From a virus, in IMG/VR virus record IMGVR_UViG_3300036790_000214, positions 1 through 38,030 of that record: a stretch of DNA of 38,030 nucleotides; one strand, written 5' to 3'. Position numbers and translations under genes: made by a program. This document shows positions 1,861-34,757 of this stretch, in pieces (position 1 is the first letter of the stretch; each line of letters starts with the position of its first letter). A model generated the notes under the pieces. It saw only the letters and a program-made list of their open reading frames with translations. It was not told where the DNA came from and made no database searches.

Positions 1861-3498
1861 GAAGCCGTTTTTAACTACCAGTCCGGTCTTGACGGCATGA
1901 TTAAAGACCCGTATATTTTCACCTTTCCGACCCCCCACTTTCTGGCAGAGATGATCTTTAAAAGAAGCGCCGTGCGCCCTTAAATATTCAATCATGGCCT
2001 GTAATTTATCTTGCGCCACTTCAGATTCAACCAGCGTAGAAGCCATCAAGGAAAGGGATTGATTAAGGCCATCGTAGTTCCGTTTAATCGTGATCGGTTC
2101 AGAAGATTCCGCATCCCGAAACTGAAACGTGCATTTCGCCAAAGACGATTGTTCTTCCCCTTCAATGCCAAGTACGCAATCCCGCCAGCCGTGAATCGCG
2201 CTGCTGCCGCGCATGCGTTCAAACACAGGCCGTTTATCCGCACCGCCAGATTCTTTACGAAGATGATGAATCAAGAGGACTGATGCTCCTGTTTCAAGAC
2301 TCAGCCGCGAGAACGAATTCAATACCGGTTTCATCTGTTCAGAACTATTCTCGTCAGCAGAATGAACTTCACGCATGGAATCAAACACGATGAATTTAAT
2401 GCCGTGCGTTTTCACAAACTGAATCAATTCTTTTTCGTGGTTCACAATGTTCACAAACTGTCGCGTCATATGATGGAAATTCGCGAGTTTATCGGCGGTT
2501 AATTGTCGGCCCCGCGCCAGCATATGCAGACGGCGGGAAAGGCCAAAGAATGTTCCTTCTTCTTCAACCAGTAGAACCGGCGCGGAATGCATCACACGAT
2601 ATTTACCCAGACACAAACTTCCTGTCGCGACGGCAAAAAGCATATCGAGAGCAATCCACGTTTTACCGACGCCGGGAATACCGGCGATTAACCCGCACGA
2701 TTGATTGACCCAGACCGATTCAATCAACCATTCGAGGACCGGTTCCGGAGCCGACAAGATATCAGAAGCCAGCCCGGCTTTAATGGTGCCTTTCGGAACA
2801 ATCTGATAGCGTTGAAACATATCGGTTACAAGATCGAGCAGGTCTTGTTCGAACTTCTGTTCAACGGCTAAAGGCATGAGCGTGGCAATCACTTCGTGCG
2901 CTTCCAATTTCGCCGACATCAGTTTTCCGATCAACCGCATAAAGCTGTCGTGCCGATTTCCGTCGGAAAGCCCCGTAATTTTGTCGGCGATATTGAGAGG
3001 TTCTTTACCGTTGGATGAGGTGGTATGAGGAATAACGTCGTACCAGGGTTCCGGAAGGTCGACGATTGTTTCCGTTAATTTCCATTCTCGGCCCGGCATA
3101 TGAACCGACGGGACAATCACGTATCCGCCTTTCCCGCGAATATCTATTCCCGGCTGAATATCGGAAATGGTGGTAATGTACTTTTCCATCCGCGCATTCC
3201 AATTAAAGAAATAATGGTAACCGCGCGGTGTCTTCGAAATGCGGGTAGGCGGCAATGGATAATTCAACGTGGCTTGTGTGGTGAGTCCTCTATCGCCGTC
3301 GACGTCAATCACAAACAATTTCGAAAAAGGGCCGGTGGGACATCCAATCCCGGCGGACGGAAATTTCTTTTCCCAGTCGAGGATTTCCAGTTCTGTCGGG
3401 AATCGTGACTGAAAATCTTTCCAGCGCACCAACGGTTTTTTATCAGGTCCGACAGGAAAAACAGGCCAGCCCATCCGCAGATAATCTTGATACGTCAT
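1840..3498 (-). CDS. Primase-polymerase fused to RecA-like helicase (RepA-like)
   Basis: A 552-residue replication protein. Residues 1-150 match the bifunctional primase/polymerase (Prim-Pol) fold: WPVFPVGPDKKP at the start, the catalytic-type DVDGD at 65-69, GYHYFF at 93-98 and GIDIRGKGGYVIVP at 117-130. Residues 250-450 are a RecA/RepA-type ATPase with Walker A GIPGVGKT (273-280), a Walker B strand ending FIVFD (D373) and an LLIHHLRK sensor strand. The C-terminal 70 residues look like a winged-helix segment. The fusion should prime and unwind phage DNA. ATG 3498 is chosen because GGAGGGGG lies just before it; an ATG five codons upstream would contain that site. A potential RNA pseudoknot (3525-3605) precedes it and iterons follow it. 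Confidence 0.9.
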   Translation of the reverse strand: MTYQDYLRMGWPVFPVGPDKKPLVRWKDFQSRFPTELEILDWEKKFPSAGIGCPTGPFSKLFVIDVDGDRGLTTQATLNYPLPPTRISKTPRGYHYFFNWNARMEKYITTISDIQPGIDIRGKGGYVIVPSVHMPGREWKLTETIVDLPEPWYDVIPHTTSSNGKEPLNIADKITGLSDGNRHDSFMRLIGKLMSAKLEAHEVIATLMPLAVEQKFEQDLLDLVTDMFQRYQIVPKGTIKAGLASDILSAPEPVLEWLIESVWVNQSCGLIAGIPGVGKTWIALDMLFAVATGSLCLGKYRVMHSAPVLLVEEEGTFFGLSRRLHMLARGRQLTADKLANFHHMTRQFVNIVNHEKELIQFVKTHGIKFIVFDSMREVHSADENSSEQMKPVLNSFSRLSLETGASVLLIHHLRKESGGADKRPVFERMRGSSAIHGWRDCVLGIEGEEQSSLAKCTFQFRDAESSEPITIKRNYDGLNQSLSLMASTLVESEVAQDKLQAMIEYLRAHGASFKDHLCQKVGGRKGENIRVFNHAVKTGLVVKNGFKWDVPE

Positions 3499-3524
3499 TT
3501 TTTCCCCCTCCATAAAAACAAAAC

Positions 3525-3605
3525 CCTGACGGACATAGCGATATCCCGGTAAGGAAGGGCTACGCCGTCAGGAAAATCGGATTTGTAGTGCAATACCGGG
3601 ATATC
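3525..3605 (-). promoter_or_regulatory. Interleaved inverted repeats (A-B-A'-B'), potential pseudoknot leader
   Basis: Two perfect inverted repeats interlock: CCTGACGG (3525-3532) with CCGTCAGG (3565-3572), and the 12-base GATATCCCGGTA (3540-3551) with TACCGGGATATC (3594-3605). Because they alternate, the leader RNA could form an H-type pseudoknot but not two nested hairpins. The last arm ends about 15 bases upstream of the Shine-Dalgarno of the primase-helicase gene. It could regulate that gene's translation or act as a protein-binding site on DNA. Confidence 0.65.
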
Positions 3606-7599: not shown

Positions 7600-7925
7600 A
7601 AACTCAGTTAATCGAAAAATTAGTTGAACAATTACTTAACGAAAAAGAACCGAAATGGAATGGTGACGATCTACCGTTTATCGTTGGAAAAGCCTATCTG
7701 ATCCGAACCGTTACCTATCACATGCTCGGAGTCCTTGAACGAGTATCTGGCGCATTTCTAGTATTAAAAGAGGCCTCATGGGTAGCCGATTCAGGGAAAT
7801 TTTCAACTGCTATTGCAAAAGGGGAATTGTCTGAAATCGAATATGTGGGCGACGCTATTGTTTCCATGAACGCTATCGTCGATGCTTTTCCTTGGATTGC
7901 TAAAGTTCCTAGGGAAACAAAATGA
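7596..7925 (+). CDS. Conserved-looking hypothetical protein
   Basis: A 109-residue, mostly acidic protein reading GKAYLIRTVTYHMLGVLERVSGAFLVLKEASWVADSGKF. This resembles a family of small phage proteins predicted to adopt a beta-rich fold, function unknown. The ATG at 7596 follows AAAAGGAG; earlier in-frame starts are less well placed. TGA overlaps the next ATG. Confidence 0.65.
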   Translation: MKTQLIEKLVEQLLNEKEPKWNGDDLPFIVGKAYLIRTVTYHMLGVLERVSGAFLVLKEASWVADSGKFSTAIAKGELSEIEYVGDAIVSMNAIVDAFPWIAKVPRETK

Positions 7926-8110
7926 CTCCCGTCATTGGCAATATAAATACGTTATGGAGCAGGAGCAGGAGCGGGAGCTGGAGCGGGAGCTGGAGCTGGA
8001 GCAGGAGCGGGAGCAGGAGCGGGAGCTGGAGCGGGAGCTGGAGCTGGAGCAGGAGCGGGAGCAGGAGCTGGAGCTGGAGCAGGAGCGGGAGCAGGAGCGG
8101 GAGCAATTAA
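7922..8110 (+). CDS. Ser-X dipeptide repeat protein (one reading of the GGAGCN array)
   Basis: The ATG overlaps the previous stop (ATGA), as is usual in this operon. After 12 ordinary residues the sequence is an alternation of Ser with Arg, Gly or Trp, 25 times. The frame is open across the repeat and ends just after it. Coupling supports translation, but the absence of C in the variable repeat base favours another frame (see 7954-8115). Function unknown. Confidence 0.4.
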   Translation: MTPVIGNINTLWSRSRSGSWSGSWSWSRSGSRSGSWSGSWSWSRSGSRSWSWSRSGSRSGSN

Positions 8111-8115
8111 CTTAG
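7954..8115 (+). CDS. Glu-X repeat protein, predicted single alpha-helix (alternative reading)
   Basis: Starts at ATG 7954 just before the repeat. The product is an alternation of Glu with Gln, Arg or Leu for about 50 residues, a charged composition typical of long stable helices. In this frame the variable base selects CAG, CGG or CTG. The fourth choice, C, would give proline and never occurs in 25 units, which suggests selection on this frame. There is no good Shine-Dalgarno, so translation is uncertain. Confidence 0.4.
   Translation: MEQEQERELERELELEQEREQERELERELELEQEREQELELEQEREQEREQLT
7956..8105. repeat. 25 tandem copies of the hexamer GGAGCN
   Basis: Exactly 150 bases in 25 unbroken units. 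Only the sixth base varies and it is A, G or T, never C. All forward frames are open. Higher-order units, such as a block repeated from 7956-8003 to 8004-8051, suggest growth by duplication. Confidence 0.95.
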
Positions 8116-9270: not shown

Positions 9271-9570
9271 ATGAAAAATAAATTCTGGCTGCTCTCCGTA
9301 TTCGTTCCGACGCTGGCATGGGCTTGCCCCAAAGGAAGCACGGGATGGGAAGGCACCTGCGCTTATGACAATATCAGACCGTTGGAATCTTCAACGAATA
9401 TTGCCACTGTTTGGGTGAGTGCCGAGAAACCGCCGAAGACCACGACTGGCGAATGGCAAACGGATAAGATCAGAATCGTGACGCTATCGCCTTTATCGAC
9501 GGTAGATGACGAGATTTCGGCGGCTAAAAAGTGGGATGCCGCACATGGCGAACCACCAAAGGGAGAATAA
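9271..9570 (+). CDS. Secreted small protein with a Sec signal peptide
   Basis: 99 residues. AAAGGAGG ends six bases before ATG 9271, which is preferred to ATG 9265. Residues 1-18 (MKNKFWLLSVFVPTLAWA) form a signal peptide with an AWA cleavage site. CPKG...GTC just after it could form a disulphide. The signal resembles that of the fibre gene at 14952-17732 (WLLVFLPTFAW). Function unknown; it would act in the periplasm or envelope. Confidence 0.7.
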   Translation: MKNKFWLLSVFVPTLAWACPKGSTGWEGTCAYDNIRPLESSTNIATVWVSAEKPPKTTTGEWQTDKIRIVTLSPLSTVDDEISAAKKWDAAHGEPPKGE

Positions 9571-10007
9571 TGGAAAGATGGCGAAAGTCTTTGAATGAAG
9601 GGCACATTCTTACTTCCGAAATGGATGGGCAAGTACTTTATTATATTAACTCCATTGAATCTGAGCGCGATAAGCTGAAGGCGGAACTAGAACGCGTAAG
9701 CGGAAAGACGCAATTCTGCATTCTCTGTGAACAGACGGCAAAGGAAAACGACAAACTGAAGATGGAACTGGAACACATCAGATTCATAACTGGACGAAGC
9801 GGATGTGAAATTGTTGATCGCCTTGAATCTCTGGACCGCTGGCGCGAGATGGCGGGGAAGCTGGCGCGAAGTCTTGAAAGAATATCTTTTTCCAAACCGG
9901 ATAGATTATCTCATCAACTTGATGTTTTGATAATTGAACGGGCGGCTAAATTAGCGAAACAAGCCTTTGATATTTACGCCGCCATGGAAAAAGGGGAAAC
10001 AAAATAG
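9570..10007 (+). CDS. Coiled-coil hypothetical protein
   Basis: 145 residues, ATG overlapping the previous stop (TAATG). Residues 25-100 have long Glu/Lys/Leu heptads interrupted by a CILC cysteine pair. No family recognised. It ends two bases upstream of the permuted tRNA 3' half. Confidence 0.65.
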   Translation: MERWRKSLNEGHILTSEMDGQVLYYINSIESERDKLKAELERVSGKTQFCILCEQTAKENDKLKMELEHIRFITGRSGCEIVDRLESLDRWREMAGKLARSLERISFSKPDRLSHQLDVLIIERAAKLAKQAFDIYAAMEKGETK

Positions 10008-10009
10008 AT

Positions 10010-10150
10010 TTGTGGGTATAGAGGTCGTGGGTTCAAATCCCACTCCCTGCCAGACTCGAAGCATGGGAGCATAGGCATATGTTCTCGTTCAAGAGTCTAA
10101 CCGTGGACGCACGGGATGCGGGGATGGAGCAGCCGGGTAGCTCGCTATAC
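10010..10150 (+). tRNA. Circularly permuted tRNA-His (anticodon GTG)
   Basis: The 3' half comes first. Anticodon loop and GTG anticodon are at 10010-10016 (GTG 10012-10014), stem strand TATAG 10017-10021, variable loop AGGTC, T-arm GTGGG-TTCAAAT-CCCAC 10027-10043, acceptor strand TCCCTGC 10044-10050 and discriminator C 10051. After a 66-base linker the 5' half follows: acceptor GCGGGGA 10118-10124, T8 G9, D-arm GAGC/GCTC 10127-10143, G26 and CTATA 10145-10149. All joints fit: a 7-bp acceptor (one G-U), a 5-bp anticodon stem, the T8-A14, G15-C48, G18-G19 and G26-A44 contacts, and a mature length of 74. C73 and GTG are hallmarks of tRNA-His, but G-1 is not encoded (T at 10117) and CCA is absent. 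The linker forms hairpins at 10052-10098 and 10101-10114. The enzyme that rejoins it is unknown. Confidence 0.8.
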
Positions 10151-10154
10151 CCAC

Positions 10155-10283
10155 TTCGTTTTCGGGACGCTCAGCCAAAGACGGTTCACGAGATAGCGTG
10201 GTAAATGTAATCCGATACGGTCGAGTCACATCGAAAGCTCCTGAGAACAGGGCCGCGTCCCGATTAATTTCGAGGAGGATTGA
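10155..10283 (+). ncRNA. Structured RNA segment downstream of the permuted tRNA
   Basis: Between the tRNA 5' half and the next gene, CGGGACGC (10163-10170) and GCGTCCCG (10255-10262) form a perfect 8-bp closing stem around 84 bases that contain CACG/CGTG and CCG/CGG hairpins. No T-run follows, so it is not an ordinary terminator, and I recognise no riboswitch or ribozyme class. The segment ends with GAGGAGG, the ribosome site of the next gene. It could be part of a processing element for the tRNA. Confidence 0.45.
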
Positions 10284-10487
10284 ATGAAACGTGGTAAATT
10301 CACAACCGCATCCCAAAGAGAACATTGTCGTCAAGCATTCCGCCTCATTAGTTTTTGTGCAGGCTCAATCTATACGGGAGACTATAAACAGGCTTACGAA
10401 GAAGCAATAGAAGCCCAGAAGCATATGACTATTGTGTTTGGAATTATTGATGAAAATGAAATGTTTCCAAAGGAGCCTGAGCGATGA
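10284..10487 (+). CDS. Small hypothetical protein (67 aa)
   Basis: ATG 10284 follows GAGGAGG. The 67-residue helical protein has no recognised motif. The stop overlaps the ATG of the next gene (ATGA). It restarts translation after the tRNA region. Confidence 0.65.
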   Translation: MKRGKFTTASQREHCRQAFRLISFCAGSIYTGDYKQAYEEAIEAQKHMTIVFGIIDENEMFPKEPER

Positions 10488-10654
10488 GCGAAAAGAAAAA
10501 CGCGACTGACAGACTTTACGATGCCGTCATCGCCTACGTGGAAGAAAAAGGCGGAAAAATTCTCGTTATCGGCGGGATAGAAATACAGCAATTCCCAGAG
10601 GACCTTAGAAATAATTACAGGATCGCCATTCGGTTCACAGGTAAAAAGCCATGA
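10484..10654 (+). CDS. Small hypothetical protein (56 aa)
   Basis: 56 residues, coupled by ATGA overlaps on both sides. The pattern EEKGGKILVIGGIEIQQFPEDLRNNYRIAIRFTGKKP suggests a small beta-alpha fold. Function unknown. Confidence 0.55.
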   Translation: MSEKKNATDRLYDAVIAYVEEKGGKILVIGGIEIQQFPEDLRNNYRIAIRFTGKKP

Positions 10655-31522: not shown

Positions 31523-33339
31523 GACATCGCCATTTGCGATTGCCCTTTTGCCGCCGCCCCAAGTTCTCCAGCTTGCGACCTGACATTTTCAGCCGTTGCA
31601 AGAGAACTACCCACCTGATCCATCGCGTTCGGCGGCGCGGCCATTCCACCCATAGGAGAACCCATCTGAGGGATCATCGGCGGCGGCGGAAGAAAGACAG
31701 TCTTTGGATCAATTCCAATGGATCGCGCAAATTCGCCAATGAACGGCAACAGATTGACTTGACCCAATTGAGGATTCGCCGTCCTAATGCTAGTAACGGT
31801 TTGCAGAAATTGCAAAAGGTCTTTATTTCGTTGAGGCCGGAAATCTTTGTCCGTCACAATCTTCGTAACGACTTGCGCGTCAATCGCAATGTCATTCGGG
31901 AAGACGCGCATCGGCGATTTGTCAGGACCTGTATTTGCGATCCAGAACGGTTGATCGAGAAAAGTTCCATTGTTTTCATTGGACTTTGAAATATATTCAC
32001 GCACCAGAGAATCAGACATAACCTCCGCCATCACCGAAAGACGGCGAACAGCTTCTGACTGAGCAATAGAACTTTCTGTAGCGGTTGCTTCCGTAACCAA
32101 CGCCTGAAGATTGTCCGTCGCGCCCGTCGTTGCGCGAAATTCGGTTTTCATCAGGTCTTCCAGCATTTTCCCCATGTTTACACCCTCTAATTGCGGGCGT
32201 ATCGGTTTGAGCCCTTCAGCATCGTCAGTTTCCACAACTCCCCAGGGTTTAATTCGGAGCTGGGAAGTCTTGATATTCGCCATCCGACTGGCAATCCACA
32301 TATTGAATAGCGAAAAGGTAATCGTATCGTGCATCCGTCCACGGTTCGAATTGATTTCAGGTTGTAAACTTTCAGCAACACGACCGACGCCATAACCGTA
32401 TGGTTCCAATTCGAATTCATTGAGATGGGTGAACAGGAAAGGGCGTCTTTTGTAAGGCGAAGGATGCGCTCTAATGATGTGTAAGTCATTGATCGTCGTC
32501 ACCACCCATTCCTGCCCGTCCGGCAGGGGATTTTCAGTCAACGGCCCGTAATACGTCACCATATAAAACACATGGGAAACGTTGGCGGTCGTCGGGCCTC
32601 CGGTAAAAGAGTAGTAACCAGCCGCCGCCAATCGTGATATGACCTCAGGAGTCATGTTCCCATATTGTTTCGCGGAGTCCACGACTTGCTGAATCGCAAT
32701 CGGATCCCAAACTCCCGGCATCTTTTCCGCAAGATCGTTCAACATATCTTCCGTCACGAAATCAATCGCCGCGTGCCACCCGCTCTGCGAAATGTCAATA
32801 CAAAGCGGATCGAACGCAATCTGAAGAAGAGAACGCGGGATAAAGTCCGTCGCCTCAAAATAGGGTCGATTCGAAACGAACGGAGTTTCAACGGCGACTG
32901 TTCCCATTAATGTTGCCGAACGCAAGGACTTTAAGAGTTTACGAGGATACTGAATCACCGTCTTCTGCCATTCCAGAACCGATTCCGATTTCCAAAGCTG
33001 TTCCTGAGAAATCATCGGATTATGCGACAGCAAACTAAAATTCGGCTGAGCGGAGGTCATCGCCCGATGCAGAAACGTCGCTATCGCTTCCGTCGCTCGA
33101 GTGGTTTCTGTAACTTGAGGATTAGCAAACCCATCAAGCGCTCCGCTTCTTGGAGGTTTAACAAGACGCCAGAAATCAGCGTAGGTGTTGAAGCGGTAGA
33201 GCTGGGCGACCAGCCGCGAATGCCAGTAATCGACTTTTTCTTTGATTTCATAATGCGCTTTTCCTTTCAGTTTGAATAACGCACCGTCCATTTCATAGCC
33301 GTTATCCGTAATTCCAGGCGATCCTGTCATGGTTTCCAT
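31519..33339 (-). CDS. Portal protein
   Basis: 606 residues. The N-terminal part (HYEIKEKVDYWHSRLVAQLYRFNTYADFWRLVKPP) and the NPQVTETTRATEAIATFLHRAMTS segment are typical of podovirus portal proteins. A central helical stem and a Pro/Gly/Met-rich C-terminal region (PPPPMIPQMGSPMGGM, about 560-575) follow. It forms the dodecameric ring for DNA packaging. TAATG overlap with the terminase gene. Confidence 0.85.
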   Translation of the reverse strand: METMTGSPGITDNGYEMDGALFKLKGKAHYEIKEKVDYWHSRLVAQLYRFNTYADFWRLVKPPRSGALDGFANPQVTETTRATEAIATFLHRAMTSAQPNFSLLSHNPMISQEQLWKSESVLEWQKTVIQYPRKLLKSLRSATLMGTVAVETPFVSNRPYFEATDFIPRSLLQIAFDPLCIDISQSGWHAAIDFVTEDMLNDLAEKMPGVWDPIAIQQVVDSAKQYGNMTPEVISRLAAAGYYSFTGGPTTANVSHVFYMVTYYGPLTENPLPDGQEWVVTTINDLHIIRAHPSPYKRRPFLFTHLNEFELEPYGYGVGRVAESLQPEINSNRGRMHDTITFSLFNMWIASRMANIKTSQLRIKPWGVVETDDAEGLKPIRPQLEGVNMGKMLEDLMKTEFRATTGATDNLQALVTEATATESSIAQSEAVRRLSVMAEVMSDSLVREYISKSNENNGTFLDQPFWIANTGPDKSPMRVFPNDIAIDAQVVTKIVTDKDFRPQRNKDLLQFLQTVTSIRTANPQLGQVNLLPFIGEFARSIGIDPKTVFLPPPPMIPQMGSPMGGMAAPPNAMDQVGSSLATAENVRSQAGELGAAAKGQSQMAMS

Positions 33340-34757
33340 TAAAAATATCCCGCCGAATTGCCATCCACATCAAGCCCTTCCGAAGTCGGTCGAAAAACAG
33401 ATGGAACCGTAAACTTCACTTTCTGCTGTTCAAGTTTCTCAAGCGCGATCTGCTGCATGATCTGGGCTTGCGTTAAATCGGAATCGTTGGTCTTTGACGC
33501 CCCCAAGAAAAGATCGAATTGAAGCATTTCAACGAGATAGTGCAACGCATCAACGAGATCGTCATTTCCGGCGTCATCCGGCTTTTCCATGGTCGTGTCT
33601 TTCCACTCGTAAGCGAGCATCTGTTTCCTGAGCATCGGGCATTTTTCACCGTCAATAACAATCCGGTTTTCATGCAGAAGCTGTTGAATCATGGCGCGAG
33701 AGTTTTTCTTGTCTCGAGACGAAGGCCGAAGCGGGGAAATACCGGCTTGCCGGAAATGCCAGAGGACAGTTAACCCTTTCATCTGGGGATCTTCTTTCGC
33801 CGCATCATGGGAAATCGCGGTATTCGATACCTTCTCGCGGAACGTCGTCAGGTTCTTAATGACCTGAGCTTGCGCGGGCGCAGACATATTATTCTCAGCG
33901 TATTCACGGTACAGATGGAGTTTCCGGCCAGAGACAAAGGCCCAGAGACAAGCGGTATCGTCCCGCATTCCCCAGTCCACAGCTCGCCAACTGACAAAAG
34001 TTCCAGAAGGCATTTCCACGCGTCGCACGTGTCGGGAATCCGAAAACGAAGAGAATACGCGGCCTACACTTGATTCGTACTCGGCAAGATATTCCTGTCG
34101 CCAAACTTCTTGAGTATCACAATCTTTCCGAGCTTCCTCGATTTCTTTTCTATCTAATATCGGGTTATCGTAAATTGAATAATGGAAACAAGCCCATTCC
34201 TTTTCTCCTAGATTTATTTTGCGACGCGCCTCATCTTCCAAATCTTTGATCCAATTAAAACCTTTGGGAGTAAAAATAAATAAAGCAGGCGCTCTTTTGG
34301 GAACAAGATTCGGGCGAATAATTTTTGACCAGACATCAGGCTTATGCAGAGAAGCTTCTTCGAAAATAACACCGCTGGGCTCTGGACCGCGAAGAGAATC
34401 TGGATTATCTGACCCCATCAAATAAAGACGCGAACCGTTTTTAAGCGTCATTATCAAGTCGGTGTCATTCGGCTTTTTACCGTAAGCGCCTTCCGGAATA
34501 ATTCGTTTGAATTTATCCCACGAAATAAGAGCCGCCTGTTTGTAAGTCGGTGAAATTATCCACGTTACGGAATTCGGAGGGCCCAGCCAATCCATAGCAA
34601 TTCTTTCGGCAAGGGTTGTCTTTCCCCATTTTCTACCGCATCGAATTATCTTGAACCGCGCCGGATCGTTACGAACGATCTTTTGCGTAGCATGAAATGA
34701 AAAATCGGTTTTGAAAATCTTTTTCTGAGCTTGGGAACTGCTAGGAAGGAGTTGCAT
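33339..34757 (-). CDS. terL: Terminase large subunit
   Basis: 472 residues. ATPase domain: Walker A GRKWGKT (41-47), Walker B VIFEEA (130-135). RNase H-like nuclease domain: RAVDWG with Asp261, followed by ISHDAA and DDLVDALHY near residues 400-410, which carries the second acidic cluster. It cuts and translocates concatemeric DNA into the procapsid. Its position beside the portal gene is standard. Confidence 0.93.
   Translation of the reverse strand: MQLLPSSSQAQKKIFKTDFSFHATQKIVRNDPARFKIIRCGRKWGKTTLAERIAMDWLGPPNSVTWIISPTYKQAALISWDKFKRIIPEGAYGKKPNDTDLIMTLKNGSRLYLMGSDNPDSLRGPEPSGVIFEEASLHKPDVWSKIIRPNLVPKRAPALFIFTPKGFNWIKDLEDEARRKINLGEKEWACFHYSIYDNPILDRKEIEEARKDCDTQEVWRQEYLAEYESSVGRVFSSFSDSRHVRRVEMPSGTFVSWRAVDWGMRDDTACLWAFVSGRKLHLYREYAENNMSAPAQAQVIKNLTTFREKVSNTAISHDAAKEDPQMKGLTVLWHFRQAGISPLRPSSRDKKNSRAMIQQLLHENRIVIDGEKCPMLRKQMLAYEWKDTTMEKPDDAGNDDLVDALHYLVEMLQFDLFLGASKTNDSDLTQAQIMQQIALEKLEQQKVKFTVPSVFRPTSEGLDVDGNSAGYF

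Follow-up and report, generated by a model that had tools for sequence, protein, structure and literature searches.

The permuted tRNAs of algae and archaea mature by way of a bulge-helix-bulge and an EndA-type endonuclease, and permuted tRNA genes have previously been tied to the archaeal and eukaryotic splicing endonuclease; the algal and archaeal genes are reportedly the subject of a review by Soma from 2014. Circularly permuted tRNA genes of this kind are known from red and green algae and from Thermofilum (PMC10085705). The locus described here is like these genes in that the 3' half comes first, the joined halves make up a complete tRNA and a spacer at the acceptor end would have to be removed. 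It is unlike them in belonging to a phage and in having a continuous helix, and a match to the EndA-type endonuclease (PF01974) was found in none of 19 phage records, namely the one studied here and 18 others. Permuted tRNAs in phages imply either another circularising and joining route, of bacterial or phage origin, or tRNA look-alikes with another purpose, and the question is testable in laboratory phages that are already in hand.

The window, by which we mean the whole stretch of DNA that was analysed, is all 38,030 bases of the IMG/VR virus record IMGVR_UViG_3300036790_000214. It comes from a tailed phage with a terminase (33339-34757), a Sak4-like annealing protein, a primase/helicase and a DNA methyltransferase. 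Run on the linear sequence, ARAGORN finds no ordinary tRNA in the record, and the linear window gives no Rfam match at the gathering threshold. Two plus-strand genes are separated by a 276-nt non-coding stretch (the first ends with its stop codon at 10005-10007, the second starts at 10284), in which a tRNA 3' half (10010-10051) lies upstream of a 5' half (10118-10149) with a linker of 66 nt between them (Table 1). No relatives were found for the 145-aa protein encoded just ahead of it.

Table 1. Features of the permuted tRNA locus and its neighbours (positions in the window).
Feature	Positions	Strand	Basis
Upstream gene, 145 aa, no family; stop codon 2 nt ahead of the tRNA 3' half	9570-10007	+	sequence/protein comparison
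Anticodon loop, nt 32-38, TTGTGGG; joining at 31/32 would give anticodon GTG	10010-10016	+	ARAGORN on joined/circularised sequence
3' strand of continuous 10-bp helix GTGGGTATAG, partner 10145-10154	10012-10021	+	sequence; minimum-energy fold
tRNA 3' half: anticodon stem 3' strand, variable loop, T-arm, acceptor 3' strand 10044-10050, nt 73 = C10051	10017-10051	+	sequence; ARAGORN
66-nt linker from nt 73 to nt 1, two hairpins	10052-10117	+	folds
tRNA 5' half: acceptor 5' strand 10118-10124, D-arm 10127-10143, G26, anticodon stem 5' strand 10145-10149	10118-10149	+	sequence; ARAGORN
CCCAC, pairs with loop nt 34-38 (10012-10016), lengthens anticodon stem	10150-10154	+	sequence; minimum-energy fold
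Second folded domain with CGGGACGC/GCGTCCCG as its closing helix, no Rfam family	10163-10262	+	fold of 10150-10283, z -2.25
Downstream gene, 67 aa; ribosome-binding site GAGGAGG 10272-10278	10284-10487	+	sequence

When positions 10010-10149 are read as a circle, or when 10118-10149 is joined to 10010-10051, ARAGORN returns a full cloverleaf and calls it tRNA-His(gtg). The acceptor pairs at 7/7 positions (GCGGGGA/TCCCTGC), the D-stem at 4/4 (GAGC/GCTC), the anticodon stem at 5/5 (CTATA/TATAG) and the T-stem at 5/5 (GTGGG/CCCAC), while the tertiary positions are canonical (U8-A14, G15-C48, G18-U55, G19-C56, U54-A58, G53-C61) and U33 is present. The sequence-only reading, which had placed the 3' half ahead of the 5' half and had found every checked secondary and tertiary position to fit once the halves are joined, is thus borne out by the sequence and by ARAGORN on the joined or circular form, with 21 stem pairs and no mismatch among them. 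Its 5-bp anticodon stem is fully paired, but the helix is actually 10 bp long and continuous, GTGGG at 10012-10016 pairing with CCCAC at 10150-10154 on top of the five pairs of the stem. In line with its expectation that no bulge-helix-bulge machinery would be available, no such motif is present at the window junction, and the helix between 10012-10021 and 10145-10154 is uninterrupted.

Folded without constraints, the whole 276-nt intergenic RNA adopts the permuted cloverleaf with two linker hairpins as its minimum-energy structure (z = -3.2). In the predicted precursor the acceptor end is closed by the linker, the 10-bp anticodon-side helix has the free ends at its tip, and loop nucleotides 34-38 are base-paired. 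A purpose-built scan for permuted cloverleaves gave the window a score of 22, against at most 20 in 924 dinucleotide shuffles of it (70 Mb, both strands counted). On the basis of these shuffles and of class-level covariation in Streptomyces phages (see below), it is well supported that the window holds a circularly permuted tRNA gene.

Such permuted tRNAs are widespread in phage contigs. In viral contigs we looked for T-arms placed ahead of a D-arm without U33, a pattern that excludes ordinary tRNAs, and then applied a complementarity test. Among 101 T/D pairs outside ordinary tRNAs, 10 had an acceptor of at least 6/7 and an anticodon stem of 5/5 (0.05 expected from pairing halves of different loci), rising to 28 (0.6 expected) when the anticodon stem was relaxed to at least 4/5, and a short-linker scan with 91 T/D pairs contained 46 permuted tRNAs in 46 contigs (0.44 expected); these are scan counts and not abundances, and the V33 filter, by which U33 is excluded, biases which cases appear. 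All loci pooled, there are 72 permuted candidates on 64 viral contigs, and the view of the window gene as a singular phage oddity does not survive the dozens found in other phages. The window gene has its break in the anticodon loop, close to nt 31/32, as do the genes of the class. In bacterial and archaeal genomes the initiator-type pattern gave 98 matches, most of them ordinary tandem tRNAs, and no clean permuted case. Searches of the open-access literature brought up no account of permuted tRNAs in phages, and such phage-encoded genes look new. Standard tRNA finders miss permuted genes, and phage tRNA counts are therefore incomplete.

Two of the loci belong to cultured isolates, the Streptomyces phages Annadreamy and Blueeyedbeauty, and there are 77 matching phage records. 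In Annadreamy, Faust, Gilson, EGole and relatives (Stanwilliamsviridae) the permuted tRNA is unannotated and sits in an unannotated gap adjoining an annotated tRNA-Ile, in most records ahead of a tRNA-Ser. When 14 Streptomyces phage records were aligned to the permuted structure with two outer helices, 98.2% of cells were paired, 15 pairs had both sides changed, and covariation was 0.439 for the permuted pairing against 0.04-0.10 for slid pairings. The acceptor helix, which is formed only when the halves meet, is 100% paired in these records, with compensatory changes at six of its seven pairs; its variants include CCTGGGC/GTCCAGG, CCACGGC/GTCGTGG and TCCCGGC/GTCGGGG. Compensatory changes between the halves, which had been suggested as the check to make in related phages, are found in the Streptomyces phage genes; for the window gene the searches gave no homologue to compare. 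The Streptomyces genes and the window gene are alike in the permutation point at the anticodon loop, the closed acceptor and the phage setting, whereas the Streptomyces genes have a conserved two-helix element (GGGTCG..GTTATCTT.../..CATATCCA) and a linker of 6-8 nt, and the window has no such element and its far longer linker. In Annadreamy-type phages the whole loop CTTCCAA, U33 included, is part of the 3' half; its anticodon UCC (Gly) together with U73 is consistent with glycine identity. EGole and Sushi23 (L319, L320) have the loop CTTCAAA with anticodon UCA, which would read UGA, where relatives such as Annadreamy have UCC. Further elements with the GGGTCG..TTATC frame follow the permuted tRNA in Annadreamy (L307, 490-640) and SparkleGoddess (L313, 490-740); they contain T-arm and acceptor parts with no clear D-arm or anticodon stem, and are tRNA-like fragments.

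Our preferred reading, to which we assign a probability of about 0.6, is that the circularly permuted tRNA gene of the window is genuine, has its break in the anticodon loop at nt 31/32, is transcribed within a run of phage genes and is matured to a working tRNA. RNase P would cut ahead of nt 1, at 10117/10118, the 3' trailer would be trimmed by an exonuclease and CCA added, and an RNA ligase, or a splicing activity not yet recognised, would join the ends at nt 31/32. Small intron-like hairpins that flank the gene probably guide this last step in the commoner phage class; the window gene lacks them and would use an anticodon-intron type pairing, GTGGG/CCCAC, instead. Among the 19 phage records the RNA ligase family PF09414 is above cut-off in 8 and PF09511 in 3, and RtcB was found in none of the phage records examined; phage RNA ligases are candidate joining agents in the permuted class. 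The window record, which may be incomplete, has no match to RtcB, PF09414, PF09511 or EndA, so that joining there would have to rely on the host or on RNA chemistry.

The main rival, which we consider rather unlikely, is that the halves are never joined and that the element acts in its tRNA-like form, as an RNase P or other processing site, a protector of mRNA ends, a regulatory structure or a decoy for host nucleases that target tRNAs. The 10-bp helix, which leaves no open anticodon loop, would suit such a role, as would the position between two genes with a ribosome-binding site about 120 nt downstream. Related elements consisting of T-arm and acceptor only, in the same hairpin frame, are carried by Streptomyces phages, and defences that cleave tRNAs are known to be countered by tRNAs of phages (PMC10264068, PMC11555353). 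On the other hand, the anticodon loop and U33 look as in a normal tRNA, both in the window and in several relatives, every tertiary position is kept, and U73 with UCC in the Streptomyces set would fit a charged glycine tRNA.

Much less probable is that the locus is the remnant of a tandem tRNA duplication minus its outer halves, whose structure has persisted through inertia alone. A permutation arises most simply when a tandem duplication loses its outer halves, and there is no homologue of the window gene that shows conservation, but mismatch-free stems with a perfect 5-bp extension speak against decay, as does the same type of gene being conserved with compensatory changes in a phage family and recurring in dozens of contigs. 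A permuted two-piece tmRNA is very improbable. It would share with the window the order of the pieces (3' acceptor piece, spacer, 5' acceptor piece), the long helix that replaces the anticodon stem and the G3.U70 pair present in the window acceptor, as in alanine tRNA and tmRNA; the window gene, however, has a full 4-bp D-stem, a coding gene occupies the expected tag region with no tag open frame beside the 3' half, and the Rfam tmRNA model matches the T-arm alone, at 12.3 bits against a threshold of 47 bits. Phages often carry tRNA 3' ends as attP, but an attachment site or a chance assembly of two tRNA-like fragments is the least probable explanation of all and already contradicted, both halves being present and complementary, no integrase or att site having been found in the window record and none of the 924 shuffles reaching the window score.

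In most phage permuted genes the sequences on either side form hairpin elements that enclose the gene, with GGTTAC, or GTTATCTT in Streptomyces phages, ahead of the 3' half, ACAGCAA in other contigs, and often a CAAAA-like sequence after nt 31. Because the flank motifs recur in apparent introns of ordinary-order tRNAs (L103 and L385, and a tRNA-Leu in L088), many permuted genes look as if small tRNA introns, which match no Rfam family, had been put into a permuted intron-exon order; the motifs also stand alone between tRNA genes. Around 10010-10150, GGTTAC- or ACAGCAA-type motifs are absent. A broader proposal, which we put forward tentatively and at somewhat less than even odds, is that phages have an unrecognised permuted-gene tRNA system, in which hairpin elements of the GGUUAC, ACAGCAA and GGGUCG..GUUAUCUU types, found in ordinary-order tRNAs and around permuted ones, would direct EndA-free excision and joining at the anticodon loop, RNase P would open the circle, and the window gene would be an outlying member relying on anticodon-intron pairing instead.

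Several further observations concern such elements. Apparent small introns of 45-98 nt occur in ordinary-order phage tRNAs (L103, L349, L385, L341, L327), with ends that resemble the flanks of permuted genes; this list was made without a chance control and is a lead only. A hairpin with ACAGCAA beside its closing helix and no Rfam family recurs in L040, L052, L054, L088 and L132, being placed between tRNA genes, within a tRNA-Leu intron or around permuted tRNAs, and L052 and L088 also contain ROOL/GOLLD RNAs. In two huge-phage tRNA arrays (L004, L005) a tRNA-like RNA of about 190 nt, GGGGACG...CGTCTCCA, lies upstream of tRNA-Met and is not called by ARAGORN; the first pattern matches in these two were rejected as ordinary tandem tRNAs. 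An Oscillospiraceae MAG (L155) has an initiator-type tRNA 5' half broken at the anticodon loop, between GTTGGGTG and AACAAGCG..., and the interruption is maybe an intron in a bacterial genome. Group I and group II introns were also considered for the window, and no Rfam intron match was obtained at E<=10 in 9800-10500.

Eight viral scans, one genome scan and a phage BLAST brought up no homologue of the window gene itself; in 50,697 phage records, blastn with the locus gave only short matches to the tRNA halves. Terminase relatives (L006-L008, 53-63% identity) are without the permuted element, nothing tRNA-like lies in the syntenic stretch of L022 behind the methyltransferase, and a scan for initiator-type permuted genes with longer linkers gave nothing new. 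One candidate was dropped for an acceptor of 5/7 (L029), and a conceivable outer helix of the window gene, GGAAAC/GUUUUC, was set aside as too short. The nearest analogue of the paired loop is one gene in L044 with a 5-bp extension. The only other clean initiator-type permuted case is L027 (IMGVR 3300010367_000063), which shares with the window the initiator-type body (A11:U24, GAGCAGCCCGGTAGCTCG), a long linker, a small phage contig and no normal tRNAs nearby; it differs in an acceptor of 6/7 pairs, the lack of an extended helix and a terminator hairpin right after the gene. On its reverse strand (9514-9650) it forms a stand-alone permuted unit, with a promoter-like TTGATT-17-TATCGA upstream and the strong terminator directly after the 5' half, and, read by eye, the gene appears to have its own promoter. 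L002 (2850-2960) and L026 (about 3480-3560) share an orphan T-arm that leads into CTCGCTGA(C/T)CGAGA and has an initiator-type D-arm downstream.

As for the amino acid, histidine had been proposed from anticodon GUG and C73, both of which are present. Bacterial tRNA-His is expected to carry G-1, but base -1 is T in the window gene; the D-arm has A11:U24, which we take to be an initiator-tRNA feature, and the blastn matches of the halves are mostly to phage tRNA-Met/Ile. Anticodon and identity elements thus match poorly, since G-1 is missing and the body is of the initiator type, and the tRNA-His assignment is weak and uncertain.

Two other observations come from the window. Within 10150-10283, CTTCG of the second folded domain can pair with CGAGG of the next gene's ribosome-binding site, and this pairing, in competition with the tRNA helix, is a possible switch. 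Further upstream, at 7882-8115, an open frame consists mostly of EQERELERELELEQ repeats.
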